DNA of 64,000 nt. Origin: Pagrus major (Eukaryota; Chordata; Actinopteri; Spariformes; Sparidae). This document shows, one piece after another, positions 4,464 to 47,468 of the stretch. The DNA lies in the NCBI RefSeq assembly GCF_040436345.1, contig NC_133219.1:22347458-22411457 (forward strand). The letters are read 5' to 3'. Under the pieces are notes generated by a model that had not been told where the DNA came from, did no database searches, and was given only the letters and a program-made list of their open reading frames with translations. The stretch's first letter is position 1. The number at the start of each line of letters is the position of its first letter. The position numbers and the translations under genes were made by a program.

Positions 4464-5439
4464 AATTTATAACTTCTGAAACTGCATAGAGGCAAGAAGC
4501 CTTTGTGCTGTGGGAGATGACTGGATTCTACTGGTTCATGGTTCATTCACACAAGAAGTGAGGAGCCATATGATTGACTTTCACGTCATTCAACAAGCAT
4601 ACACACAAAAGAGACCAAAGAGCTGAAACTCCTATTTGAGCAACAGCGTTTGTCAGTTGTTTTTGTTTACTTTGATGCACAATCATTGCATAGTTCCTAC
4701 AAATGACTTGTTAAATGAGTTTCAACCTCAATTATATGAGTGGATTTCAAACTGTAATGTTTTTTGTTATTGGTTCAACTTGAAACCGAATCATCGTGAT
4801 GTCAAGCTCACAACAACAGTCACTTCTGTTGTGCTTTGGAAAACTGGACCCTGAACCCTAACTTTAACGGGTAAAGATAGATTTATGTGTCTTTGCTGGA
4901 GTCTTTGATATCTTCACAACAGCCACATCTCACACTAAATGCTAGTTTTGGTAAAATCAAGCTGTCATTTTCTATAACAGGTAAATAAGCTCTCCACACA
5001 TAACATCAGTGAAAGTGTTGTTGTTAATGAGGTATGACAAAGCATCAAACATGCATTTTAGATTAATTGTGTAAACTTACAATGTGTGATGCCAGGGTTT
5101 TCTACCAGGAAGTTTTTTGTAAACAAGCGTTGTGATTCGTTCTGTGTATATTTTGGTTTTGGGAGGCTTTAGAGGAGACAAATTAATTGTAGTTTAAATG
5201 TTACATGTACGCGTTGTGCTTTTTCTTTTGAGCTGCTACTGTTGAGGATTGTCTTTAATCTTGACAACTCAAGTGATGAAGGATACTCAGGACACTTGAT
5301 GCCTTACTTTGAAGTATTTAATGAAGCTCTATCGAGGAGAAATGGCTCAACAATACAAGTGTATGCACGGTGTAATGCCAAACCAGTTCTGAAGGACACT
5401 TCCCAGTCTCTGGGCATTTAACCCTTACAAAGAATATCC
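4464..5439. other. Intergenic, no recognised gene
   Basis: No exon or named repeat recognised; AT-rich and probably includes the 3' untranslated region of B. Confidence 0.35.
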
Positions 5440-12639: not shown

Positions 12640-12718
12640 TGAAGTTTTAAGAACTATTTCTCCAGCAGCAGCAGTTGGTCGCTCATTGACAAACTCTCAA
12701 ATAACCAACTGAGGACAT
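12640..12718 (-). pseudogene. Orphan first exon of a lost zinc-finger gene
   Basis: Read on the minus strand from 12718, ATGTCCTCAGTTGGTTATTT leads into GAGCGACCAACTGCTGCTGC, a clear match to the first exons of D and E. A 2-bp loss after TTGAGAG shifts the frame and gives a stop at the former Asn-Glu-Arg site; the region after GAGAAATAG is deleted or diverged. There is no donor site and no nearby second exon that is not already used. It is the remnant of a further paralogue in the same orientation as D and E. Confidence 0.75.
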
Positions 12719-18472: not shown

Positions 18473-20292
18473 GGTGCATGTACAGTGAATTTGGTGAATA
18501 TCACTGTGTCACCCTGTAACTCTGGATTGGGAGGGGTTACATTCTCTGTCTTTTCAGCATTAATAGTAGAGGAAACCAGGTGCATGTACAGTGAATTTGG
18601 TCAATATCACTCCTTGCAATAAGGACTTACAGGGTGCAGTCACTTTTCGGCAGGCCCTGCCGAAAAGTGACTGCACCCTGTAACTCTGGATTGGGAGGGG
18701 TTACATTCTCTGTCTTTTCAGCATTAATAGTAGAGGAAACCAGGTGCATGTACAGTGAATTTGGTCAATATCAGTCCTTGCAATAAGGACTTACAGGGTG
18801 CAGTCACTTTTCGACAGGCCCTGCCGAAAAGTGACTGCACCCTGTAACTCTGGATTGGGAGGGGTTACATTCTCTGTCTTTTCAGCATTAATAGTAGAGG
18901 AAACCAGGTGCATGTACAGTGAATTTGGTCAATATCACTCCTTGCAATCCAGAGTTACAGGGTGCAGTCACTTTTTGGCAGGGCCTGCCGAAAAGTGACT
19001 GCACCCTGTAACTCTGGATTGGGAGGGGTTACATTCTCTGTCTTTTCAGCATTAATAGTAGAGGAAACCAGGTGCATGTACAGTGAATTTGGTCAATATC
19101 ACTCCTTGCAATAAGGACTTACAGGGTGCAGTCACTTTTCGGCAGGCCCTGCCGAAAAGTGACTGCACCCTGTAACTCTGGATTGGGAGGGGTTACATTC
19201 TCTGTCTTTTCAGCATTAATAGTAGAGGAAACCAGGTGCATGTACAGTGAATTTGGTCAATATCACTCCTTGCAATAAGGACTTACAGGGTGCAGTCACT
19301 TTTCGGCAGGCCCTGCCGAAAAGTGACTGCACCCTGTAACTCTGGATTGGGAGGGGTTACATTCTCTGTCTTTTCAGCATTAATAGTAGAGGAAACCAGG
19401 TGCATGTACAGTGAATTTGGTCAATATCACTCCTTGCAATAAGGACTTACAGGGTGCAGTCACTTTTCGGCAGGCCCTGCCGAAAAGTGACTGCACCCTG
19501 TAACTCTGGATTGGGAGGGGTTACATTCTCTGTCTTTTCAGCATTAATAGTAGAGGAAACCAGGTGCATGTACAGTGAATTTGGTCAATATCACTCCTTG
19601 CAATAAGGACTTACAGGGTGCAGTCACTTTTCGGCAGGCCCTGCCGAAAAGTGACTGCACCCTGTAACTCTGGATTGGGAGGGGTTACATTCTCTGTCTT
19701 TTCAGCATTAATAGTAGAGGAAACCAGGTGCATGTACAGTGAATTTGGTCAATATCACTCCTTGCAATCCAGAGTTACAGGGTGCAGTCACTTTTTGGCA
19801 GGGCCTGCCGAAAAGTGACTGCACCCTGTAACTCTGGATTGGGAGGGGTTACATTCGCTGTCTTTTCAGCATTAATAGTAGAGGAAACCAGGTGCATGTA
19901 CAGTGAATTTGGTCAATATCACTCCTTGCAATAAGGACTTACAGGGTGCAGTCACTTTTCGGCAGGCCCTGCCGAAAAGTGACTGCACCCTGTAACTCTG
20001 GATTGGGAGGGGTTACATTCTCTGTCTTTTCAGCATTAATAGTAGAGGAAACCAGGTGCATGTACAGTGAATTTGGTCAATATCACTCCTTGCAATAAGG
20101 ACTTACAGGGTGCAGTCACTTTTCGGCAGGCCCTGCCGAAAAGTGACTGCACCCTGTAACTCTGGATTGGGAGGGGTTACATTCGCTGTCTTTTCAGCAT
20201 TAATAGTAGAGGAAACCAGGTGCATGTACAGTGAATTTGGTCAATATCACTCCTTGCAATAAGGACTTACAGGGTGCAGTCACTTTTCGGCA
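18473..20292. repeat. 164-bp tandem satellite with palindromic junctions
   Basis: Ten essentially complete 164-bp monomers plus a truncated and an internally deleted first unit. Junction centres lie at 18655, 18819, 18983, 19147, 19311, 19475, 19639, 19803, 19967 and 20131, exactly 164 bp apart. At each junction a 28-bp arm (TTACAGGGTGCAG...GGCAGG) meets its inverted copy (CCTGCCG...CACCCTGTAA) with one spacer base. Each monomer is therefore a mini-element with terminal inverted repeats, repeated head to tail. Junctions at 18983 and 19803 share a variant (CAATCCAGAGTTACAGGG) that lengthens the arms to about 39 bp; they are five units apart. Short frames inside are not genes. Confidence 0.95.
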
Positions 20293-31682: not shown

Positions 31683-31759
31683 GAACTGGCAAGTCCAGTT
31701 TTCGCAAATACTTTGATAAAAGTTTTTGCAGGAAGAAGTATCTCACTCAAAGTTCAACA

Positions 31760-34700
31760 ATGTCTTCAGCTCAAAGTATGAGACAGTTTGTCTGTGATCG
31801 GCTAACCGCGGCCGCTCAAGAAATACTGGGAGTTTTTGAGAAGAAATTGGAAAATTGCGAGGCAGAAATCGCTCGTCAACGCAGGCTGTTGGACTCTGTC
31901 TTCACGCCTGAGATAAAGTTACACCGGACAGGTTGGGAAAATTCATTTTTTTCCCCTCATAAAGCCAATTCTGTGTTAAACAGTCGCAGGTATTGGTCAA
32001 GTCATGTGTTATTTTTCAGCTATGTCGAGCCTCAACTTACAGGAAAAAACACTTTAACAGGTGTAACAAATCATTAGATTTCGAGAAGATACCGTGATGA
32101 GTGGGCTCAGCATGTCGCTAAATAGGCATAAATATATGTGTCCAAATTGTTAGTGACATTACACTGTATTACACTTACTGCTGTCACAAAGCGTGTTAGA
32201 CACGTGAAGCCTCGTTACATGCGGAAGTCGCCATAATACTTCGGTCCTGTCTCCTGAGGGTCGATAAAAACTTGACAATAATTGACATATCCTAAACATT
32301 GCCAGAAGCCTGAACTCGGCCATCGGTTGTTATGTTAGACAACTTTGTTAACAACAAGCAGTTGTGGAAACTAACCAGTGGTTGAATGTAACTAAGTACA
32401 TTTACTCAAGTACTGTACTATTTGTAGGAGCTATTTGTAATGTCCAGCCACCTGCTTAAAACGAATAGGGGGCAGTATTTCCTCCTTTATCAAGGTTTAG
32501 TTCAAACCCTTTTTGGCATTTATCCTATATATTTCATTTGTTTCCTTGCAAATTCAATATTGCACGTTGTTAAAATTGTGAACACCGAAATAATTACTTC
32601 TATCTATATATTTAGTTACCCATATATTCACCATTGCTCAGTTGTATCATTCTTTTGTTGCACAATAAGTGCTAAATAAAACTTTTGGAGGTTTACATTG
32701 ATTCTAAATTTTGAAAGCTCATTCAATTTGTGTAACAAAGACAGGTCTGTGTAAGCAGACATACTAAGCAACCACTGTAACCTTCATTTGAGTAAAGCTG
32801 GCACAAAAGCCTTTCCAGCAGGTTGGACTGTTTCATTTCAGTGATTGTCAACACAAAAAGCCTTTTGTGTTTTGGCATTTATCACAAACAAAAACAAAAT
32901 GTACAAAAATATCAGTGCAATAGTAGACACAGGAATATTTGCCGTGGTGTTTGGTGCATTAAAAAAATGGAGGCTAATTACTGCAGCAGTCAAGACCATA
33001 AATATAAAAAAAATAAAAATTACAATAAAAATATAAGGAAATACTATAACAGGTATGCATGTTTTAGACTTACAAAGCTGTACAGTTTTTGGGGGTGGGG
33101 GGGGGGGCTTGTTGATGAGACCAGCTGCAGATAAGAATAAAGGGCAGGGTGGTAATTCATCACTGGGGGTGGCTGGACTGGACTTTGCTTCTAAAAAGAC
33201 AAAGGTGGGGCAGGGCAGTTACTTTAGTTCAGACACCTTGTTTTTATTAAAACATGTTAGGGCTGTGTTTACTATACAGTGTGAACAGTGATGTGACCAG
33301 GCTAAGATAAATACAATGTGAACTCTGTAGCATTTTGAATGTTTTTTGTTAAGCCTTCTGTACATGTAATATATGATTAATGAGAATTTTAATTTTAATA
33401 TTACAGGGAGGATTTATTCATTATTTCACTCAGATGATGTCACTACTCATAATACATACATCACAGTGCCATCTGCCCTCTTTCAGGAAGAAAGTAAAGA
33501 ACAGTTGTGTACAAAACTAATGATTTTATACTGTCACACAGCAGAAACATGGACTGCAGAGATAAACTTGTTCATCAGACCGCCACATGGTTTTCACTGG
33601 ACACACGGTTTACAAATTACAACTAACTGAGATCTTCAGCCACCGTAGACTTACTTGTCACGGTCACTCGGTCCAATGCTTGATACAGCAGGATCTTCCA
33701 GCTCTGCAGGCCTGGTCCCACTTCATGGGAGTAGAAGCCAGAGCTGCTCCTTGTACTTTCCTGGAGCAGCAACTTGATGATTTACTGACTGTACATAATA
33801 TCTAACAGTGTCATTGCTGCAATAAGACACAAGTAATAAACCTTATAATGTCCTCAAAAATGTATAGCAAAGTTACATAACCTCAAATCTTGCCTCATCT
33901 CATGGCAGTAGTTCCAAGTGGTTAGAATATGATGAATCAAATGACATTTTTTCAGTCTGTCTACTACTGGGTCCATACAAACACAATTTACATTCACCTG
34001 CTATAAATAAAAGCAACTAATAACTGACAGCAGAGCAAGAATATGCAAAACTCGACCAAACTGCTGAACCTCCAACGGCTTGTCAAAATAAGACTTAAAT
34101 AAGCTTTCTTATGATCTTCACGTGTGGTTTTTGTGTATACAGTATGTTTACTTTTTACATTGCTGCTTTTCTCTGCACCTGACGTGGTGTCTTTTCAGGA
34201 GTTGTTGTTTGAGATGATGATAAAAGTCGTTTTTCTGGAGCTGCATCTTTGTGTTTACTGAATAACTTATGAGGCTGTTAACTTCTCTATGGTAGTTCCT
34301 CTGGTTGGCTCGACTTCTTCATCATCTCCTGCAGCACACTAGTCGCTACAGCGACTCACAATAACCCCCTCAGGCCAGGAGGACATATTACAGAATGTAT
34401 TACAGAAGAGACAGCCTGTACTTGGCTGCTTAGCAGTGGATATCTCTGCAATGCAGTACAAAGACATCTTGGACATAACACCAGAACTGCCACTTCTTCA
34501 CACTCGTTGATAGGGTTAGTTCATTTTTTTTAATGTTTTAAACTAAAATAATGCACCTTTTATGTACAAATTTGAGGTACTGGCACTCAAATGGAGTATT
34601 TTTATGTTATGCAACTTAAAATTTGTACTCCAGATGTAAATATTGCACTTTTTACTTCACTACATTTGTCCCACAGCTTTAGTTACTTTATTAGTTTTAA

Positions 34701-37700
34701 AAAATCATACCGTTTCAGTTCAGAGAAAACCATCTATCTCAAAATTCGGTGATTTTAAATTTGATTATTTCAAATTGATTATTTTATTTAACATGTGATG
34801 ATTTTATAGAATACGATCCATTGCAGATTAAATTACCCAACAGTATTTAGCTCAAATCTAAACATCTAGAGCGTTAACATACAACATACACATTAATACA
34901 GCAGTAATATTGATCCAAAAACTTAATGTTCAATAGTAAAATACTGACTGGCAAACATTGACATTTTTACTGCACAATAAGTACTTTTATTTTGGATATT
35001 TTAGAGACATTAATCTGACATACTTCCATAGTTTAACTTCAGTAAGGTTTCGACTGCCTGACTTTTACTTATGGTGGAGTACTTTCACAGTGTGGTATTG
35101 CTACTTTTATTTAAGTGAATAATCTGAATACTTCTTCCACCACTAAAAGTAACTAGCATTAAGTACATTTACTCAAGTAATTTGTAATACAATTTTGACT
35201 AAATACTGAATTTTTACGACCTGATTATTACAATTTCATGATGGTTTCACCTGTATACTGTTATTGTATTACTCAACTACTTTAATCATTCAACTAGTTA
35301 AAGCTACTTGTCTAAAGTTATAAGAAATACAATACATTTCCTCATTAAATATTAAAACTATGATTCCTAAACCTTCTGGCTTGTGATCACTTACAATAAG
35401 GTCCAGTTAGGGTCATTATACAGATGTCTTGGAGTTGTTGGTACTCAAAGACATCAAACTTCTTGCCTTGCTTTGTCAGTCCTTGAGAGGTGAACTGTTG
35501 TGTGTCTAATTAACACTGTTCATCATAGACTTTCTTAATCACAACCGTTGAATACAGGCTTATTAATGTGCAGCATTTCATCATTGTCTTATTTCTTTGT
35601 CCTTCCCTTTAGAGCTCGCACAGTTATCTGTCAATAAGGAGGGGGCAGTCCTTCGGAACAGGCTGCAGACTGGCTCCAGTTCGGTCCAACCAGATCCTGC
35701 ACGTATCAAGGAGGAACAAGAGGAAATGTGTGTCAGTCAGGAACGACAGCAGCTTGCACAGCAACAGGACACCAATGCCTCTAAGGTGACTCCAGCTTGT
35801 GAGGAAAGTGTCCACAGGGATCAATCTCAGAATTTGGACAAAGACCAGCCAAATAAAGATCCTCCATCCAGCGACTCAAATAAAGAGATATTATCTGGAT
35901 CTGACGGGGAGGGTTCTGCGGTATCAGCAACAAATGATGACAATCTCACTCACAACTCTCAAGAAGCTGAGAGTCAAGATCACATAACTTGCACCCATGG
36001 AGGTGCAACCCCAACTAGGCATAATGAGTCAACAACACATAAGACAAGTGATGACGAAAACGCATCAGCTACAAGTATGGAGCACACATCAGATAACCAA
36101 AGCAATGATGGGAACACAACATCAACTAAAATTACTGAGCCAACACCAAATGAAAAATGTAATGATAAGACCACAGCATCAACTAGAGACATTGAGTGTC
36201 CACCAACTGAGAGCGGAAATGATAACACCCCAACATCAGAAGGTAATAGTGAGTCAACAGCATCAATTAGTAGTACCAAGCTAACACCAAATGAGAACAC
36301 AACATCAATCAGAAATACTGAGCCAACACCACAGAGGAAATCAGAAACAACATCAGCTAAAAATATTAAGCCAACACCACAGAGTAAGTGCAGCGATAAG
36401 ACCACGAAATCAACTAAAGGCACCAAGCAAACACCAAATGTTGAAAAACGTAATGTTGAGGATCCAACATCAACTGAAAACACTGAGCAAACAACTAATA
36501 AGAACCGTAATGATGAGAAGACAACATCAGTTACACATACCGAGTCAGCGCCAAAGAAGAAAGGTGACGATAAGACCACAGCATCAAATGATGAGAACTC
36601 AACATCGAAAGCAAATGGTGAACCAACACAAAATAAGAAACAAAACAATGAGAAGACAACATCAGCCAAAAGTACTTTGAGTACTAAACCAGCACCAAAA
36701 AGACACAGTGGTGGTAAAACAACTTCTACTGGAAGTGTTGAGCCAACACCACGTAAGGATTGTAACAGTGAGAACAATTCAGCTACACCACAGGAGAAGG
36801 GTGATGATACAAGCACAACATCAAATGAATGCACCGAACTTACACCAAATGAGACATATAATGATGAGAACCCAACATCAGAAGAAAATAGTGAACCAAA
36901 ACTAAATAGGAAAAGCCAAGATGGGAGACCAATCTCAACTGGAAGTTTTGAGCCAGCACCAAATAAGAAACGTAACAATGAGAAGACAACATCAGCTAAA
37001 AGTGCTGATCCAACAGCAAAAAGAAAACCCAATGACGGGAAAGCAAAATTAACCTCAAGTTCTAAACCAGCACCAAACAAGAGTAATGATGGAAGCACCA
37101 CATCAACCAGAAGCAGTGAGTTGACACCAAATAAGAAACCGAAAAATGACAACACAGAGTCTACAAGCAGCAAGGGGTTGACAACTCGTAAGAGACTTAA
37201 GGAGGGAAGCGCAACATCGGTTGGAAGTAGTGAATCAACACCAATAAAGAAACGTAAGGATGAAAATACACCGACCAGAAATACAGAGCAAAAGCAAAGT
37301 GAGGAACACAACAATGAGAGCACAGGGTCAACTGGAAGTATTACAGCACCAACAGACAAGAATGATGGGAACACCTCAGGTAGTAGTAGTAGTAACGAGG
37401 GTGAAACTGACAACCCTTTCAAGTGTGAAAGGTGTGGTAAAGTGATGACTAATTTCAAAAACTACAAATTTCATATGAAATCCCACACTGTTGAAAAGAC
37501 TTACAAATGTGACGATTGTGGGAAAATGTTCAGGGAGAGTTGGGATTTGAATAAACATCTGGTGGTTCACTCTGTTGTCAAGCCTTATAAATGCACGGTC
37601 TGCGGAAACGGGTTCAACCGCCAGTATAATCTGGATCTGCATTCAAGGGTTCACACTGGAGAAAAGCCATACAAATGTGACGTCTGTGATAAAAGCTTCA

Positions 37701-38104
37701 GCTCATTGGTGAATATGAAAAAGCACAAGAGAATTCACACAGGTGTGAAGCCTTACAGCTGCAGCGAATGCGGGAAGGAGTTCGCAGATTCTTCGGCTTT
37801 CAGAAATCACCAGCGAGTCCATTCGGGGGAAAAGCCCTTCAAGTGTTCCTATTGCAAGAGAGAATTTGCTACCGGTACGACTTTGAAAAGGCACACCAGA
37901 ATACACACAGGTGAAAAGCCATATAAGTGCACTGTGTGTGACAAGTTGTTTGGTCATAAAACAGACCTGAAAGGACACATGAGGTTACATACTGGGGAGA
38001 AGCCTTACAAATGCAGCACTTGTGGAGAAAAGTTCTCCACCTGGTTAAAACACAGCAAACACAAGAGAAAGCACACAAGCGAAGCACAAAGCCCTTCTAC
38101 TTAA
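31760..38104 (+). CDS. Zinc-finger gene I (helical domain, long repeat linker, eight C2H2 fingers)
   Basis: Predicted join(31760..31931,35613..38104), 887 residues, intron 3681 bp. Exon 1 encodes MSSAQSMRQFVCDRL, TAAAQEILGVF and RQRRLLD and ends GGACAG|GTTGGG. Exon 2 follows CCCTTTAG and reads ELAQLSVNKEGAVL through the phase-1 junction. The linker keeps IKEE; the second SUMO-like site is lost (LAQQQD). Residues of about 190-655 form a low-complexity region rich in Thr, Ser, Asn, Lys and Glu, made of many degenerate units such as TEPTPNKKRNDEKTTS. No other cluster member has this. Eight fingers follow at about 660-880; the first has an unusual core (KVMTNFKNYKFH). The frame is open throughout, which argues for a functional gene. 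Polyadenylation signal candidate at 39567. Predicted nuclear DNA-binding protein with a long disordered arm. Confidence 0.9.
32376..32430 (+). mobile_element. TACATTTACTCAAGTACTG repeat, left fragment
   Basis: CAGTGGTTGAATGTAACTAAG followed by TACATTTACTCAAGTACTG is the start of a widespread acanthomorph repeat; only 55 bp are present. Confidence 0.6.
33655..33771 (-). other. Possible unassigned exon on the minus strand in the intron of I
   Basis: The minus strand has an open frame containing YSHEVGPGLQSWKILLYQAL and ending close to a consensus donor (GACAA|GTAAGT, minus-strand donor at 33654-33649). Base composition is less AT-rich than its surroundings. The protein is not one I recognise and the acceptor is unclear. 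It could be a retrotransposon-borne fragment or chance. Confidence 0.2.
34557..35300. mobile_element. TTCTTCCACCACT / ACATTTACTCAAGTA repeat copies in intron of I
   Basis: One near-complete diverged copy (ACAAATTTGAGGTACTGGCA to CTTCTTCCACCACT at 35144) is followed directly by the left part of another (AAGTACATTTACTCAAGTAA). Confidence 0.6.
35995..37410 (+). repeat. Coding Ser/Thr/Asn/Lys repeat tract of gene I
   Basis: More than twenty degenerate in-frame units of roughly 60-70 bp, each around ACTGAGCCAACACCAAATAA and GATGAGAAGACAACATCAGC. Units such as 36480-36540 and 36950-37010 are clearly related. Lack of T in key positions also leaves a 492-codon frame open on the opposite strand; this is a by-product of composition. 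Confidence 0.85.
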
Positions 38105-39794
38105 AAACAAGTCTGCATTTGATGCACAATACTGCTGATAAAGGTACATGAATTGCACTAAAGCAGAATTTCTGCTGGTATTTTAACATTTTATTTTAAA
38201 AGAACTCCCCCAATTTAGCATAGCATTTCTAAAACATTGTTGGACTTCATCACTCCAACAGAACCAGTCTTCCTTATTCCTTCTTCCTTGTTAAAATCTG
38301 GTGCCAACACTGACCAGTCAGCAATACAGTTGTGTGCGGCTAATAATGTAGCCTTGGGGCTACAGAGGCCTGTACAAAATATATATATATATTTTTTAAC
38401 TGGCTGCCGCTGCCTGGATGTCACTTAAGACAACATATCAGACTTTACACAGCTCCCTCTGAAGCCAAATGCAACTTTTTCACATACAGTATGTAGTAAT
38501 ACTCTCTAAGACCTGTAAACAGACTTTGATGTTAAAAGTGGAGTTAACTTTTAAGTTTTAATTTTCTGTTTTCTGTTTTATACTTTAAGGTCTTTCTCAT
38601 GCCTTGTGTTTGATGCGGTAACTGAGCTTAGGGTATTAGCCAGCTCGCTTTGCTCTCATTGGGCCATCCAGGGCTTAAAAATGGAGCTGCACTTATAAAC
38701 TCAAAGGGCAGCATTGGTGATGGTTTGCTGCTTCAGCTACTTTAGAGAGGATGAAATACAGTCCAGGAAGGGTGGTTTGAGTAATGGATCTATAAGCTAG
38801 CACTGCACAGAGCATTAGAATATCAAACTGACAATCATTTTTATAGACAAACAGTGGATTTATATGGTTCATGCTACAATGTAGTCCTGGATTGTGTGCT
38901 AGCATTTATTCAACTGGCCAGAGTGGTCATTTGCTGGATTAACTTGCATTGTGTTGCAGCAAAAGTCCATCTAGCTTTAAGTTTTATGTTGGATGCTTTG
39001 TTGTTTTTCTTTCTTGAGTTGTCTTTATGAAATGAATGAGCGGGCTGCACATTAGCTTGTAGCACTAATGTCAGTCTGGACACAGCCTTATCTCTGGCAC
39101 CGTCGCATGATGGTGACTCAAAATGAATATGTCATGAGTATGGTAATAAGCAAATGTGCAGGTTGTTAATGAATGTATTTCAGGGTCTAGAAAAACCTGA
39201 ATCTTGTTTAAATACAGGGTGATCTGACTGAGGTAGAGGCACTCTCACTTATAACTCTGATGGAACAAATCTATATGGATGACAAAATCAGTTTGTAATC
39301 CCACCGTTTTGGGCCTTGCTATGTTTCATGACAGTAACATACACAGAAACGGTTATTTTGATCTGCTGTATCATTGTTTTAATCAGAGAGCATGTTATAT
39401 ATTGTATTAGGAAAAGAAATGCAGCCTCTTTGTTGTCTTAATGCCTTAATGCCTTATCCTCTTGGTAATGAGTTTGTTTTCAAAAGTGCAGCTTCTAATC
39501 TACAGCACAATTTTTCTGTAAAACCCACAAAATGAATGTATTATGAATGATTTTTAATCAGTCTTAAATAAACCAAAATTTGCCTTTTTCATAAAAAGGT
39601 GTGGTTGTAATGTTGCTTGCAATTTACATTTTGGGCAGCTGATGGACAGACAGATAGGATGCCTCAGATGTAAGGCACTTGAACTGGCTTGTGTAGATGA
39701 GCACTGCTCTCTAGGTTTTATAGTAAGAAACTTTTGCTAAGATAAGTGACGAAATGAAGACAGTGTGTCTCGGAATTGCAGCTAAATTAATTAT
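38105..39794. other. 3' flank of gene I
   Basis: Probable 3' untranslated region up to an AATAAA at 39567-39572 (TTAAATAAACC). No coding exon recognised. Confidence 0.4.
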
Positions 39795-40405
39795 TTGGAT
39801 ATTATGAAAATTCAGTGTTTATTTTCAATAACTTCCGTATCATGTGACCCAGTGACTCCAAGCCAAGGCTGAATTGTATTACTAAATAGGACAAGTAAGA
39901 CACACCTATTTTTATTGGATTTTACTGCTTTTATTTTATATGAATATTTATTATGAAAATTCAGTATTTATTTCAATAGCTTCCATGTCATGTGACCCAG
40001 TGACTCCAAGCCAATGCTGAATTGTATGACTAAATGGGACAAATAAGACTCCACTCTCTTTTTATTACATTTTACTGCTTCTTTTATTTTATATGAATAT
40101 TAATTATTATTAAAATTCAGCAGTTTATTTTCAATGGCATCCATTTCATGTGACCCAGTGACTCCAAACCAATGCCAAATTGTATCACCACACAGGTCAC
40201 GTAGAACACGCCTCTTTTAATTGGAATTTACTCCTTTTATTTTTTTATGAAAATTTATTAAGAAAATTAAGCATTTATTTTCAATAGCTTCCATGTCACG
40301 TGACCCAGTGACTCCAAACCAATGCCAAATTGTGACTAAATGGGACAAATGGGACTCTTCTCTTTTATTACATTTTACTGCTTCTTTTATTTTATATGAA
40401 TCCAA
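39795..40405 (+). repeat. Four-copy ~150-bp minisatellite with an E-box in every unit
   Basis: Units are anchored by TGTGACCCAGTGACTCCAA or CGTGACCCAGTGACTCCAA, with anchors starting at 39841, 39989, 40147 and 40297 (spacing 148, 158, 150). Each has TTTTATTTTATATGAAT and AAAATTCAG(T)ATTTATTT segments. Three units carry TCATGTGACC and one GTCACGTGACC, all containing a CANNTG E-box. Lies 0.4-0.9 kb upstream of gene J. Confidence 0.85.
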
Positions 40406-40646
40406 TGTCCAGCCTAAAACTAACTTCACCTCGGTGTTTGATTAAGTACATTTAGTTATTTACTTTATTTCTTTATCTATTTACAGGTGTGAACCTTTTT
40501 TTTTTATTAATATATGTATTACTTAGCCTTGCAGTTTGCAGTATGCTTGTATTGTTTTATGCAATGCAAATTATTATTATTCCTACAAGAATTATACAAT
40601 TTATTGTTAATAAAGTTTTTTGAGGGAAAAAAAGAACATGGGCCGG
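40406..40646. other. Region between the minisatellite and the J promoter
   Basis: AT-rich; no feature recognised. Confidence 0.3.
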
Positions 40647-40697
40647 TTACGTCAGAGGCTGGGGGCGGGGTTATCGTGACCCACCGGAACATAAACA
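40647..40697 (+). promoter_or_regulatory. Proximal promoter block of gene J
   Basis: TTACGTCA (CRE-like, 40647-40654), GGGGGCGGGG (GC box, 40661-40670) and CCGGAACATAAACA (40684-40697) lie within 120 bp of the start codon. The same series is present before K (44632-44685), inside otherwise diverged sequence. Confidence 0.6.
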
Positions 40698-40764
40698 GTG
40701 TTTGTTTAGCCCACAGATTTTGTAGCCTGGCTTATTTTCAGAAGAACAAGAACAGAGTTTCACA

Positions 40765-42999
40765 ATGGAGGAGAAATGGAAGAAATGGTCCTTGGAGGAG
40801 ACGAACTGTCTCCTTGCACTGTGGTCCTCACCTGAAGTCCAGAGCAAACTAGTCGGAGCGACAAGAACAAAACCCGCGTACGAGCAGATACAACACGGGA
40901 TGTCTACAGCGGGGTACAACAGGAGCTTCGACCAGATCGTTAACAGACTCAAGAAGCTGAAAACTGAGTACAGGGAACTAAAGAAAACCCAAAGCGGCAG
41001 TGAGCAGCCACAGAGTAACCCCTATTTCAAAGTACTCGACTCGGTCCTCGGCGATAGACCTGCATGCCAGCTGACCGAGGCCTTGAACTCATCAGCAGCA
41101 ATCGTTAAGGTGATAGTGGATGATAAAGTGTTGCAAACCTTCAATGTTCCTGGTAAGTTTTATTTTTCAATTGTTTTTTTAATTTAATTTTTTTTTTATA
41201 TAAATGTTTCGCCTTGTTTCTAATCAGCTATTTATTTCCTAATGGTTCAGCGAATGAACGGTTGCTAGTTTGTCACCTCAATGTCAGGGACATGGCTGGG
41301 TTGAAACGTAGGTCCCTCTGGTGCCCCCGAAAACTCGGACTACCTTTCATTAAGAACAAAAGAAAACTTGCAATACCGTCTTCTATTTCTGACCCTAGCC
41401 CAATAGTTCCCACACAGTCCGTAAAGGATGACTGAAGTTATAGTGCAGCTTGTATTAACTTCTATATTTGACCTCTGATTTGTTGAGCTGACTTCAGACT
41501 ACTTGTACTTTTATACTCTCACAGCAGTTAAATACTGATTCATATGTTATACATAAAAGGTTGTGTGATGGAATATTTTTTTTTATAAAACCACACGCTT
41601 CATCAGGCAAAACATATTTATTTTCCCTTGTTTTGTCCATTCAGAGCTCCCACAATATGTCTGTAAGAAGGAGGAAGAAGAGGAGGAGGAGAAGGAGGTT
41701 GTTCTTGACCAGCAGCTCTGTAAGCAGGAGAGGGACTCCAGTCTGGACCAAGAGGACTCCAAGCCTCCACAGATTAAAGAGGAACAGGAGGAACTCTGCA
41801 CCAGTCAGGATGGAGAGCAGCTTGTCCTGAAGCAGGAAACTGATACTTTTATGTTGACTCCTACATATGATCAAACTGAATTCAAAGATCAATCTCTGCT
41901 TTTACATCCTGAACAAACTCTGCAAGATGCAGCAGAGGAAAATCCTCTTGACAAAATCCAGATTGAATGTGTCACATCTGAAACTGACACCTACCATGTA
42001 GCAGATAACCAGAATCACAGGGGAGAAAACCACAGAGACTCGGCACCAATGACACATACTGTGCCAGAACCAAAGAAGGACCAACCGATGAAAACTCCTA
42101 AAGAAAAACCCTATAAATGCTGCTTCTGTGAGAAAACATTTGCTCAGTCCGGTGAGTTAACTAAACACAGGAGAACTCATACGGGTGAGAAGCCGTATGT
42201 TTGCAGCACCTGTGGGAAAACATTCATCTGTGGTGCAAATATGAAGAGGCACATGAGGACTCACACAGGTGACAAGCCTCACATCTGCAGCTACTGTAGT
42301 AAAGCGTTTCTTTTCTTAAAAAACTTGAAAGTTCACATGAGAATCCACACTGGTGAAAAGCCTTATAAATGCACCTACTGTGAAAGGACCTTCATCCATC
42401 ACTCTATCCTGAAACGACACATAAAAACTCACACTGGAGAAAAGCCCTTTGAATGCCGCTTATGTGAGAAAACTTTTGCTCAGGTGGCTGAGGTAACTAA
42501 ACACATGAGGACTCACACGGGCGAGAAGCCATACGTCTGTGTCACCTGTGGGAAAAGTTTCAGCTGTGGTGCTAATTTGAATAGGCACATAAGGATTCAC
42601 ACAGGTGAGACGCCTTACACCTGCAGCGACTGTGGGAAGGAGTTTAAAGATTCCTCGTCGTTGAAGAATCATTTTCGAATGCATACAGGGGAGAAGCCGT
42701 ATGAATGCCCTGCATGTGGGAAGAGATTTCCAATCAGTTCAGCGTTGGCTAAGCACATTAGAATCCACACAGGTGATAGGCCATACAAGTGTGACACCTG
42801 TGGAGTTGGTTATATCCAAAAAACAGAATTGAGAGCACACATTATGATCCATACAGGTGAGAGACCATTCAAATGCAATGTGTGTGGAGACGGGTTCAGA
42901 AGAAAGACAACACTGAAGAATCACATGAAAGTCCATAAGGGGGTTTCACCAAGTAGCAGTTCTTTAAATGATGTACCTGTGCATGACATGAAAAAGTAG
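40765..42999 (+). CDS. Gene J: Myb/SANT-like domain joined to ten C2H2 fingers
   Basis: Predicted join(40765..41152,41645..42999), 580 residues. Exon 1 (129 residues) is a Myb/SANT-like domain of the MSANTD type: KWKKWSLEETNCLLALW, AYEQIQHGMSTAGYNRS, IVNRLKKLKTEYRELKK, then PYFKVLDSVLGDRP. It ends CCTG|GTAAGT in phase 1. Exon 2 follows CATTCAG and reads ELPQYVCKKEEEEE, the standard start of the cluster's second exon, with the IKEE and LKQE motifs. Ten fingers follow. No standard helical-domain exon was found between J exon 1 and exon 2 or upstream. The domain has thus replaced the usual N-terminal exon. MSANTD domains are known DNA-binding folds related to Harbinger transposon proteins. The stop TAG corresponds to a TTA codon in K, so J is shorter at the C-terminus. 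Confidence 0.85.
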
Positions 43000-44082
43000 T
43001 CAAATGGTAAAACAAAACAACAAAAAAAAAACTTCTCTGTAGATCTTGTTTAATGTTTTCACCTCACGTCCTTGTTTCTAGACATAACCCCAATGAACTG
43101 ACTGCTCTTGGAGGTTTTCTTCCGTGATTTTCAAGAAATTGCTGTCTGACCTTGCTTCATGATACAGGCCCCTGATCCACACAAATAAGTGTGATGTAGA
43201 TGCATAAACAATGACTCGAAAGTGGTGAAATAACTGAAATGACACCCCTGGTGGAAATGGATCTACAGATTCAGACAGAGTTCTGTTGGTGCACCCGGAG
43301 TCAGCTGCTGTCTGGGATATAACTCAATTTTAAAACAACCAATCTTTATTTGATCATATTGATACAATGTACAACATAATGAAACTGGTGCTCTGCATTA
43401 AACCCATCCTGAAGAACCAGCAACTCCAGATGTGAGCCCTGGTCACGGGCACTGACTGGAGAATTAATCTGGTGTGCATGTTTTGAAGGTGGGGGTAACC
43501 AGAGTACCCGGAGGAAACCCACGCAAGGGGAGAACATGCAAACTCTGCAGAGCACCACCGTGCTCATGGTCCTATTCTGCCATCATGTGGTTGTTAATTT
43601 ATTTGCACTATTTATTTGTTGTATTTTTAAGCAGACAACATGTAAAATTAGTTAAGTATATTGGGATATGTAATAAAAGTCAAACGTGTTGCATTATTTT
43701 TGGGGACCAAAAATATTCACAAAATAGAAAATAAAAATTCTGATATGTCACAGAATAAACAATCAAGTGAAAAATATCTCAATATCCCTAACTAATTTTG
43801 AGTAGTGTATCATGCATCCCCGGTAAATACATGTCTAAGTTGCCATTTTCGTCTTGTGCAACTGTCAGCTACCCCTGTACAGTATTTCCATTGGTATCTG
43901 ATGTGAATTCATTTTATGGGCCAACCTTTTTTTGCTCCTGTGTGTGTCTGGAAAGTGTATTATGATGCTTTCATGCAGCAGTTGGATATAATTTATCTGT
44001 CAATTTAAATTATGTTTAAAATAAATTAGACTATAACTAACATAAAGCATGAGCATTTGACCTATATTTCTAGATAGAAAGT
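43000..44082. other. 3' flank of gene J
   Basis: AATAAA at 43672-43677 is a polyadenylation candidate. GGAGGAAACCCACGCAAGG and GGGAGAACATGCAAACTC (about 43510-43550) are phrases of a common fish interspersed repeat. From about 43560 to 43990 the sequence matches the 3' flank of K (47580-48020). Confidence 0.5.
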
Positions 44083-44637
44083 TTGACCTCTTACGTTTTG
44101 TGATTGTGAGGGAGAAACTATTGAACATATTTTTACAGATTGTTTCCATACTACTGCCTTTTGGTTTGATTTACAGAAATACCTTTCAGAAATGCTTGAA
44201 AAAGATGTCACCCTAACAAAAATTGATATTTTACTAATTTTTAACAAGCCCAACTTCTCCCCAGATGAAATGTAAATAATTAATGTAATTATTATTTTAG
44301 CAAAATATTACATTCATAAAATGAAATGGCTTGAAAGATTGCCCTCCTGTCACACTTTTAAAGTGACAGATTTCAAATCATATTTGACTTCCATTGAAAA
44401 TTTTAATCTGAAAAACCAGAAATTGGCAAAAACAATTCAACTATTTAGGCATTTCAAATGTACTCTTTTTAATTAACAGACCTCTAAACTGTGTTTTGTT
44501 TTGTTTGTTGCTGTTTGGTTGTGCTGTGGGTGGACTGGAATTTTGAACTTGTATGGATTGTTTGTATGTATTAAATGTTCTTGAATAAAAAATAAAATAA
44601 TAATAAAAAAAACATTTAAAAAATTGACCTCTTACGT
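44083..44637 (+). mobile_element. 5'-truncated L1-type LINE with 14-bp TSD
   Basis: TTGACCTCTTACGT occurs at 44083-44096 and 44624-44637. Between them lie 527 bp encoding an L1-like C-terminal segment on the plus strand (CDCEGETIEHIFTDCFH, IDILLIFNKPNFSPDEM, interrupted by stops) and an A-rich tail (AATAAAAAATAAAATAATAA). The zinc-knuckle-like Cys/His pattern, 5' truncation, A-rich end and 14-bp duplication are typical of L1 retrotransposition. The target overlaps the CRE-like site of gene K. Confidence 0.85.
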
Positions 44638-44697
44638 CAGAGGCTGTGGGCGGGGTTATCGTCACCCACCGGAACAAGTAAAACTGTGACCGCCATT
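44632..44697 (+). promoter_or_regulatory. Proximal promoter block of gene K
   Basis: TTACGTCA (44632-44639), GTGGGCGGGG (44646-44655) and CCGGAACAAGTAAAAC (44669-44684) parallel the promoter of J. CCGCCATTTTT (44690-44700) is a YY1-like site present only here. The first bases of TTACGTCA belong to the L1 target duplication. Confidence 0.6.
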
Positions 44698-44766
44698 TTT
44701 AAATAAACATTGCAAATGTAGCCCGGCTAATCATATGGAGAAGAAGAAGAAGAGGAGAGTTTCACT

Positions 44767-47468
44767 ATGGAAGACAAATGGAAGAAATGGTCCTTGGAGG
44801 AGACGAACTGTCTCCTTGCACTGTGGTCCTCACCTGAAGTCCAGAGCAAACTAGTCGGAACTAGGAGAACAAAACCCGCGTACGAGCAGATACAACACGG
44901 GATGTCTACAGCGGGGTACAACAGGAGCTTGGACCAGATCGTCAACAGATTCAGGAAGCTGAAAGCTGAGTACAGGGAACTAAAGAAAACCCAAAGCGGC
45001 AGTGAGCAGCCACAGAGTAACCCCTACTTCAAAGTACTCGACTCGGTCCTCGGCGATAGACCTGCATGCCAGCTGACCGAGGCCTTGAACTCATCAGCAG
45101 CAATCGTTAAGGTGATAGTGGATGATAAAGTGTTGCAAACCTTCAGTGTTCCTGGTAAGTTTTATTTTTCAAATGTTTTTTTCTTGTTACCAACCAGCTA
45201 TGTATTTCTTAACCGTTCAGCAAGTTGGTTATTTCTCACATCAATGTTACGAACATCGGAGGACGTTTGTTTGGGATTAGGGATGAAGCTGGGTGGATGG
45301 ATGCTGAGGGGGCTGCAGCATCCCCTAAAACGAGACTATAACATATGCCGAATTTACAAGAAGGCCCAAATACTTAAGAATTTGTCAGAGACAGCGCTTC
45401 ACAAAGTTTATAAAGTTCCTCTGAACTCGACAACTCACAAAATTTAGCTTTTTTTTAAGGGAGCCTGGGGAATTTTCTCTCTCTTCATCTCCTTGCTGTT
45501 GTTGACTGTAGTTAATGTGGCTGCTTTGACCTATGATATGTTGGTGTTCAAGTTGGCTGTCTGCTGTTGTGCCAAACGCTCTCAAGTTGTAAATTATTTG
45601 TTTACAACGATCAGATACTTGTTATCCTGACCATTCAAATTAATCACCAAGGAGCTCTGCACCCCCAACTGTGAGGGACTTCCCATGTCCCTGGTTGGGT
45701 GAAACGTAGAATAAAATGTAAATGACAATACAACTTGTTTCATGTCCCTTATTGAAAATTAGAGCCTGGCCGATATGCACCGGTTGGCAGATCTTATCGG
45801 CTGTTTTTGGTCTATCATAGATATGTTGGTATTGATGTATATATTCAAGTTGCACTAATATGAAAAACATTATTATGGGGCATTATGATGCAGAAAAAGA
45901 TGCTTGGCGTAATTTGTGACTGATGTCATTTCAGACATTAAAGGTGCACTATGTAGTTTTGGAGAAGAAATTAAAACTTAGAATTTTAATATTTTAATAA
46001 TATTCTCAATAAAACCACACAGTGCTTCATAAGGCAAAACATCGTTACTGTTCCTTGTTTTGTCCATTCAGAGCTCCCACAATATGTCTGTAAGAAGGAG
46101 GAAGAAGAGGAGGTGGAGAAGGAGGTTGTTCTTGACCAGCAGCTCTGTAAGCAGGAGAGGGACTCCAGTCTGGACCAAGAGGACTCCAAGCCTCCACAGA
46201 TTAAAGAGGAACAGGAGGAACTCTGCACCAGTCAGGATGGAGAGCAGCTTGTCCTGAAGCAGGAAAGTGATACTTTTATGTTGACTCCTACGTATGATCA
46301 AACTGAATTCAAAGATCAATCTCTGCTTTTACATCCTAAACAAACTCCGCAAGGTGCAGCAGAGGAAGATCCTCTTGACAAAATCCAGATTGTATGTGTA
46401 AAATCTGAAACTGACACCTACCATGTAGCAGATAACCAGAATCACAGGGGAGAAAACCACAGAGACTCGGCACCAATGACACATACTGTGCCAGAACCAA
46501 AGAAGGACCAACAACAAATAAAAACTCCCAAAGAAAAACCCTATAAATGCTGCTTCTGTGAGAAAACATTTTCTCAGTCGGGTGATTTAACCAAACACAG
46601 GAGAACTCATACGGGTGAGAAGCCGTATGTTTGCAGCACCTGTGGGAAAACATTCATCTGTGGTGCAAATATGAAGAGGCACATGAGGACTCACACAGGT
46701 GACAAGCCTCACATCTGCAGCTACTGCAGTAAATCATATTATTTGTCCAAAAACTTGAAAGTTCATATGAGAATCCACACTGGTGAAAGGCCTTATAAAT
46801 GTAGCTACTGTGAAAAGACGTTCACCTGTCCGTCTACTCTGAAACGGCACACAAAAACTCACACTGGAGAAAAAGCCTTCAAATGCCGCTTTTGTGGGAA
46901 AATGTTCGCCCAGGTGGCTGAGGTAACTTCACACATGAGGACTCACACGGGCGAGAAGCCGTATGTTTGCGTCACCTGTGGGAAGAATTTCACCTGTGGT
47001 GCTAATTTGAATAGGCACATAATGATTCACACAGGTGAGACGCCTTACACCTGCAGCGACTGTGGGAAGGGGTTTAAAGACTCCACATCGTTGAAGAATC
47101 ACTTTCGGGTGCATACAGGGGAGAAGCCATATGAATGCCCTGCATGTGGGAAAAAATTCACTATGAGTACATCTTTGGCAAAGCACATTAGAATCCACAC
47201 AGGTGATAGACCATACAAATGTGACACCTGTGGAATCAGTTTTTTCCTAATAACAGATTTGAGAGCACACATTATGATCCATACAGGTGAGAGGCCATTC
47301 AAATGCAATGTGTGTGGAGACGGGTTCAGGAGAAAGGGAACACTGAAGAAACACATGAAAGTCCATAAGGATGTTTCACCAAGTATAAGTTCTTTAAATG
47401 ATGTACCTTTGCATGACATGAAAAAGTTATCAAATGTAAAAAAACAAAACAAAAAAAGAAGGAGCTAG
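44767..47468 (+). CDS. Gene K: Myb/SANT-like domain joined to ten C2H2 fingers
   Basis: Predicted join(44767..45154,46072..47468), 594 residues. Exon 1 is a close copy of J (MEDKWKKWSLEE, few substitutions) with donor CCTG|GTAAGT at the same codon. Exon 2 follows CATTCAG, reads ELPQYVCKKEEEEEVEKEVV and carries IKEE and LKQE. Ten fingers follow in the same order as J. By my count 13 of 40 base-contact positions (helix -1, 2, 3, 6) differ between J and K, with fingers 4, 8, 9 and 10 most changed and 2 and 6 unchanged. The C-terminus extends past the J stop into a basic tail (KKQNKKRRS). Both copies keep open frames and splice sites, which supports real genes. Predicted nuclear DNA-binding regulator. 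Confidence 0.87.
45755..46012. mobile_element. Two MITE fragments in the intron of K
   Basis: GCCTGGCCGATATGCACCGG (about 45763) is the end of a common CCGATAT-type fish element. TTAAAGGTGCACTATGTAG (45939-46012) is an end of the 1607-1960 family; it ends about 60 bp before exon 2. Confidence 0.5.

Follow-up and report, generated by a model that had tools for sequence, protein, structure and literature searches.

A predicted SANT-type first exon in place of the helical exon in two genes of a Pagrus major zinc-finger cluster

Results

Two genes at the cluster edge begin with a SANT-type exon

The stretch of Pagrus major DNA analysed here (C5:22347458-22411457; 64,000 nucleotides, hereafter the window) is a cluster of two-exon zinc-finger genes, of which the last two at the right edge, J and K, are our subject. 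Neither the rest of the window to the right of K nor the 10 kb beyond it showed a further finger gene. In the eight standard genes of the cluster, the first exon is helical and about 60 codons long, and exon 2 opens with an LPQ-type linker. In J and K, exon 1 has an ATG start and measures 388 bp, or 129 codons plus one base, up to the donor CCTG/GTAAGT (slashes mark splice junctions). It matches the Pfam profile PF13837 (Myb_DNA-bind_4) with E 3.7e-17 and 62.9 bits in J, and with E 2.2e-18 and 66.9 bits in K, the curated cut-off being 27 bits; the best PDB sequence match is trihelix GT-1, at E 0.014. Exon 2 follows the acceptor TTCAG/AGCTC and holds the linker and a C2H2 array. Splicing of exon 1 to exon 2, as predicted from the sequence, would restore E-LPQ-YVCK and give open frames of 580 residues in J and 594 in K. 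Intron 1 is in phase 1 in J, K and all eight standard genes, by junctions read from the sequence. A SCAN domain was not seen for the J and K exons among the Pfam families listed, which for exon 2 were 25 of 30 in J and 25 of 27 in K. The original prediction, made from the letters of this stretch, had described a 129-codon SANT-like exon ending in phase 1 and an exon 2 with the LPQ start of other cluster members; its coordinates were right, and the PF13837 and C2H2 profile matches agree with its view that one protein would combine two kinds of DNA-binding domain.

Helical first exons are common in this genome: at least 150 were matched (164 candidates, 150 scored) in the 786 Mb and 25 contigs searched. 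In the window, tblastn with five helical exons as queries recovered eight, each with E ≤1.7e-11. Between 32 and 64 kb, the same queries gave chance-level matches alone, the best at E 0.59. No helical exon occurs near the two genes, so its place is taken by the SANT exon, as had been proposed. The next best match after the eight, at 12652-12696 on the minus strand (E 0.083), is short and perhaps a decayed helical first-exon fragment.

Two other arrangements of these exons have to be weighed. In one, exon 2 of J and K would be joined, additionally or exclusively, to gene I's helical exon (31933 to 41645). Phase 1 would fit, but such a transcript must skip exon 2 of gene I at 35567 and jump about 10 kb, and we regard it as extremely improbable. 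Alternatively, the SANT exon could be a small separate gene, with the finger exon of J and K starting elsewhere. The unspliced SANT frames do remain open past the donor, to 41184 in J and 45444 in K. However, the donor and first 28 intron bases are 96% kept between J and K where the intron middle is not, the first methionine of exon 2 comes as late as residue 69, and no other first exon lies nearby, which makes a separate gene distinctly unlikely.

Homology to a C14 locus crosses the exon 1 donor

A genome search with the J exon 1 protein returned 23 matches at E ≤0.001. After J and K themselves, the best was a locus on C14, with 61% amino acid identity over residues 7-119; the remainder reached at most 37%, save for a 50-residue piece on C6 (63%). 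The C14 locus comprises, in order, open frames for four SANT exons (S1, S2, S3 and S4), TINF2_N, a linker and eight fingers. S1, too, is in phase 1 at its end, where the donor is that of J and K, GGTAAGTTTTA, and the S2 acceptor fits. J, K and S1 were set apart with a support of 100 in both trees, while S2-S4 formed another group (support 92 and 96). S1 was the sole other intact SANT exon of this type found in the whole-genome search, and decayed versions occur on C6 (about 11839143-11839418) and C14 (2127722-2127888). Within the flanks of 19 of the 23 matches, a C2H2 array (at least two fingers in one frame) stood beside the SANT match at J/K and the C14 locus alone, and L038-L040 showed none.

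DNA homology between J and S1 (70%) begins 26 bp before the ATG. That between K and the C14 locus (locus positions 4764-5236, the exon ending at 5180) extends 56 bp past the donor. At the other end of the intron, the last 25 or so bases of J and K match standard gene D (14132-14070). Because homology to C14 runs past the donor and the 3′ end of the intron is of the cluster type, these alignments place the junction most likely inside intron 1; homology across the donor into the intron also indicates that genomic DNA was joined, not a processed copy. We consider it likely that a chimeric gene, in which a SANT unit was joined within intron 1 to a finger exon of the cluster, is present here in two tandem copies, J and K. 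An exon swap permitted by a shared intron phase had been suggested for these genes and is supported here, with its junction now placed in the intron. Duplication after the join, also suggested, is consistent with the promoter, both exons and the intron ends that J and K share.

Further SANT frames were noted elsewhere. A second row of them on C14 (L010:2270-6760, equal to 14654270-14658753) lies 260 kb from the first, and no C2H2 array was seen in L010 or L038. A multi-copy element with an intact Myb/SANT open reading frame (ORF) about 25% identical to J occurs at L017:4600-5058, L018:4554-5018 and L040:891-1292, with equal-score matches on C23 and C1.

Constraint, divergence and likeness of J and K

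Across 125 codons, J and S1 differ with non-synonymous and synonymous rates (dN and dS) of 0.27 and 0.99 by the Nei–Gojobori method (NG86), for an omega of 0.28 (bootstrap 0.16-0.48), and their differences fall 31/27/54 over the three codon positions. As judged from these codon changes, exon 1 is shown to have been under constraint since the J and C14 copies split. For J exon 2 against seven standard genes (gene I left out), dS (NG86) over the first 57-75 codons is 0.27-0.42, lower than that of exon 1 against C14, which suggests that the two exons have different histories, as a chimera predicts.

Between J and K, DNA identity is 96.6% in exon 1 (94% for the SANT exon at the amino acid level), 97.0% in the linker and 90.3% in the fingers; it is 60% in the intron middle, where better blocks are 72-82% alike, and 52% on the 3′ side. 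Six of 281 codons in exon 1 and linker differ synonymously, against 27 of 298 in the fingers (p 0.0003, with codon totals entered by hand). So few synonymous differences in the 5′ coding parts, together with a diverged intron, suggest that these parts have been homogenised, with exon-restricted gene conversion as a likely candidate process. On the same counts, simple duplication followed by selection was rejected as the cause of the likeness. Compared over J 40765-42940 and K 44767-47350, the exons are far closer at synonymous sites than the introns and 3′ flanks.

J and K differ at 13 of the 40 contact sites in their fingers, compared with 29 of the remaining 240 finger sites (Fisher p 0.003), and eight of the ten fingers have a contact difference. 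The 44 non-synonymous finger codons might be taken as a sign that J and K are decaying copies without function. We judge this very improbable: each frame stays open, over 580 codons in J and 594 in K, and encodes ten complete fingers, the finger changes favour contact sites, and exon 1 is constrained relative to C14.

Several observations weigh against the chimeric origin or blunt the evidence for it. Other estimators put the dS between J and C14 at 0.78-0.81, and gene conversion within the cluster could also produce the dS contrast between the exons. From J and K alone, with 3 synonymous and 8 non-synonymous codons differing in exon 1, no constraint is visible. The C14 gene model consists of open frames placed in order, with phase checked for S1-S2 alone. 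The cluster match at the 3′ end of the intron is short and partly polypyrimidine, and the donor and acceptor of J and K could pair with other partners. Lastly, the fold model of the SANT exon, with helices at 10-20, 38-48 and 55-76 among others, agrees with a helical domain at a weak mean predicted local distance difference test (pLDDT) of 61.9.

The promoter of J and K is common to a family of miniature elements

A 35-base segment, TTACGTCAG...GACC, starts 118 bp before the ATG of J and 135 bp before that of K. At up to three mismatches the window contains these two matches (expected 0.00), and C22 and C9 also carry the segment, inside a repeat. Within 300 bp upstream of the gene, CGGAAG is present in seven of the eight standard genes, at -87 to -115, and in neither J nor K; ACGTCA is found in both J and K and in none of the eight. 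With the promoter motifs thus reversed, the timing of expression has probably changed too.

Several miniature inverted-repeat transposable elements (MITEs) contain the same promoter, followed by the 5′ untranslated region (UTR), an ORF start with codons like MDAKLKQQWSED, and then different sequence. The family is dispersed (L041-L051, L036, L037) and has CTGGTTC-like subterminal repeats, TA duplications and an internal promoter with a SANT ORF start. Its 232-bp left part gave 41 matches from 239 candidates (40 scored) and its 251-bp right part 40 from 243. The copies read are roughly 420-600 bp long with inverted ends. With ends set by eye, TA flanked both sides of six of eight copies and a 3-bp repeat flanked none; left out of this count were L049, whose flanks are those of L047, and L041, L044, C9 and C22, in which one or both ends are unclear. 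AT was at one point taken as the target duplication and gave way to TA once more copies were read. The subterminal CTGGTTC-like repeats, a motif picked after inspection, exceeded all 200 shuffles in four of seven full copies.

Against three MITE copies, K matched all three (E 7e-12 to 5e-14), J two (E 8e-6 and 4e-7), C6 all three (E 2e-16 to 2e-7) and the C14 locus one (E 1e-9); reversed targets gave no matches. By shuffle comparison, MITE ends were not consistently found round J, K, C6 and two C14 loci: p was 0.05 for left ends at C6 and C14 and 0.15-0.83 elsewhere, and 0.52-0.84 for right ends. In a second test, a level of at most 1 in 100 shuffles was reached by 2 of 15 left comparisons, both with the L045 copy (C14-upstream 0/100, K-upstream 1/100; the two other copies gave none), and by 0 of 15 right comparisons. 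Homology to the MITEs without consistent element ends would mean either that the SANT gene belonged to a transposon or that a MITE captured its 5′ end.

The original prediction had tied the exon to Harbinger transposon proteins. Genome-wide, nine of 65 SANT-domain matches lie within 3 kb of a DDE_Tnp_4 transposase match, and this pairing screen finds true SANT–transposase pairs. No transposase was found near J, K or their nearest kin, whose distances to the 150 scored matches (of 536 candidates) are at least 0.3 to 10 Mb; the nearest of these is 4.3 Mb from J and K. Two transposase-paired Harbinger Myb proteins show 20 and 22% identity to J, and two further loci yielded no usable frame. PMC9179366 gives a 3-bp target duplication as general for Harbinger. 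TA flanks lacking a 3-bp repeat, the lack of a nearby transposase among the scored matches and the low Myb identity thus leave a direct PIF/Harbinger origin unsupported. What stands of the claim of a transposon-derived exon is the link to the TA-flanked MITE family, whose direction could be read either way.

Of these two directions we lean, tentatively, towards capture: the MITE family would have taken up the 5′ end of a host SANT gene (promoter, 5′ UTR and about a dozen codons), and the SANT exon of J and K would be host-derived. Consistent with this, homology to the L045 copy starts at a near-identical inner point in J (146), K (156) and C6 (135), the five SANT loci have no consistent MITE ends around them, and the nearest intact kin sits in a locus with SANT and C2H2 frames. 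Less easily accommodated are the C14 locus, which lacks the promoter segment, and the weak left-end signals at C14, K and C6 given above. A doubtful alternative is that promoter and SANT exon came from a DNA transposon, not a standard Harbinger, that had its own SANT gene and of which the MITEs are deletion derivatives. It would explain why promoter, 5′ UTR and ORF start lie inside the MITE, and why decayed SANT copies are scattered over C6 and C14; it would also suit the subterminal repeats, as PMC9179366 and PMC9710019 describe binding of subterminal motifs by SANT proteins that elements of Harbinger type encode. The target duplications, the lack of transposase among the scored matches near the SANT loci, the identity of about 20% to the two Harbinger Myb proteins, and the absence of element ends around J and K all speak against it.

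Feature coordinates and surroundings

Table 1. Positions in the window of the parts of genes J and K, with the nearest standard first exon for comparison
Feature	Position	Strand	Basis
Gene I, nearest standard helical first exon (comparison)	31754..31933	+	tblastn match
J promoter segment TTACGTCAG...GACC, with ACGTCA and a GC-box-like motif; common to K and the MITE family	40647..40681	+	pattern search
J exon 1, SANT domain, phase 1	40765..41152	+	open frame, Pfam profile
J intron 1; 3′ end of cluster type, 5′ start like that of K	41153..41644	+	sequence comparison
J exon 2, LPQ linker and ten C2H2 fingers	41645..42999	+	open frame, Pfam profile
K promoter segment, 2 mismatches against J	44632..44666	+	pattern search
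K exon 1, SANT domain, phase 1	44767..45154	+	open frame, Pfam profile
K intron 1; first 57 bp homologous to the beginning of the intron in the C14 locus	45155..46071	+	sequence comparison
K exon 2, LPQ linker and ten C2H2 fingers	46072..47468	+	open frame, Pfam profile

The surroundings of these features hold several other structures. Exon 2 of gene I (35567-38104) is an 845-codon frame with a long repeat-like spacer rich in S, T, K and N, followed by 8 fingers, and is unlike its neighbours. A tandem array lies mid-cluster at 18510-20292 (164-bp unit, 10.9 copies, 98% matches), and a 148-bp tandem repeat of 4 copies (79% matches) occupies 39800-40401, just upstream of J. By eye, without a search, 44060-44620 resembles the 3′ end of an element of the long interspersed nuclear element (LINE) type, abutting the K promoter.

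Discussion

With regard to the splicing, protein function, recruitment and expression of J and K, we infer the following. A unit of promoter, 5′ UTR, SANT first exon and intron start would have been placed upstream of a standard finger exon of the cluster, with the junction in intron 1, where the matching phase 1 would have preserved the frame; the helical first exon would have been lost or left behind, and the chimeric gene then duplicated in tandem to yield J and K. The product would most likely be a nuclear DNA-binding regulator in which the C2H2 array reads sequence, with contacts that diverge between J and K, and the SANT domain, nearly unchanged, could add a second contact to DNA or protein in place of any recruitment by the helical domain. 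The new promoter would probably alter when the two genes are on. By analogy with FiNZ genes, as described in PMC10547256, the silencing of mobile elements would be their likeliest role. In a further scenario, which we consider unlikely, an extinct TA-flanked transposon with its own SANT gene gave J and K both promoter and domain, and the SANT domain still recognises the CTGGTTC repeats of some 240 candidate MITE copies. If true, the chimera would bring a fast-changing finger array to relics of its own source element.

Among the papers listed by our literature search there was no account of a teleost cluster zinc-finger gene that bears a SANT exon, of a SANT first exon common to the C14 locus, or of a promoter and exon start common to the MITE family, though for the first of these this is not proof of none. 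As the donor-side relative, the cluster side and the linked mobile element all survive in one genome, the event should be datable and testable in related fish.

ZSCAN20 and ZSCAN29 also carry C2H2 fingers, and the combination of SANT domain and C2H2 fingers is itself already known from them. SANT domains of this kind occur in both, and a ZSCAN20-like SANT domain moved into the new gene UTF1, as described in PMC3706607. Like these proteins, J and K have a SANT domain in a zinc-finger protein; they differ in that their SANT domain is single, their listed Pfam families include no SCAN domain, and their finger exon belongs to a teleost cluster family. The C14 locus resembles J and K in its first exon (61%), donor and intron start, with C2H2 fingers further on, but has three more SANT exons of another clade, TINF2_N, another finger array and no TTACGTCAG segment. 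KRABINER and SETMAR, host–transposase fusion genes described in PMC12062965, likewise unite a host regulatory gene with a DNA-binding domain that has a link to a mobile element; in J and K the domain lies at the 5′ end with its own promoter, and transposon origin is one of two readings. FiNZ genes, as PMC10547256 describes them, share with J and K a single N-terminal exon followed by a single finger-array exon, and occur in large clusters; the N-terminal exon of J and K differs in encoding a SANT domain. A 28-residue FiNZ domain characterises the FiNZ class. J and K thus appear to present, within one intron, a zinc-finger gene that exchanged its N-terminal module and promoter together, a change of the sort that the rise of new zinc-finger classes must involve.

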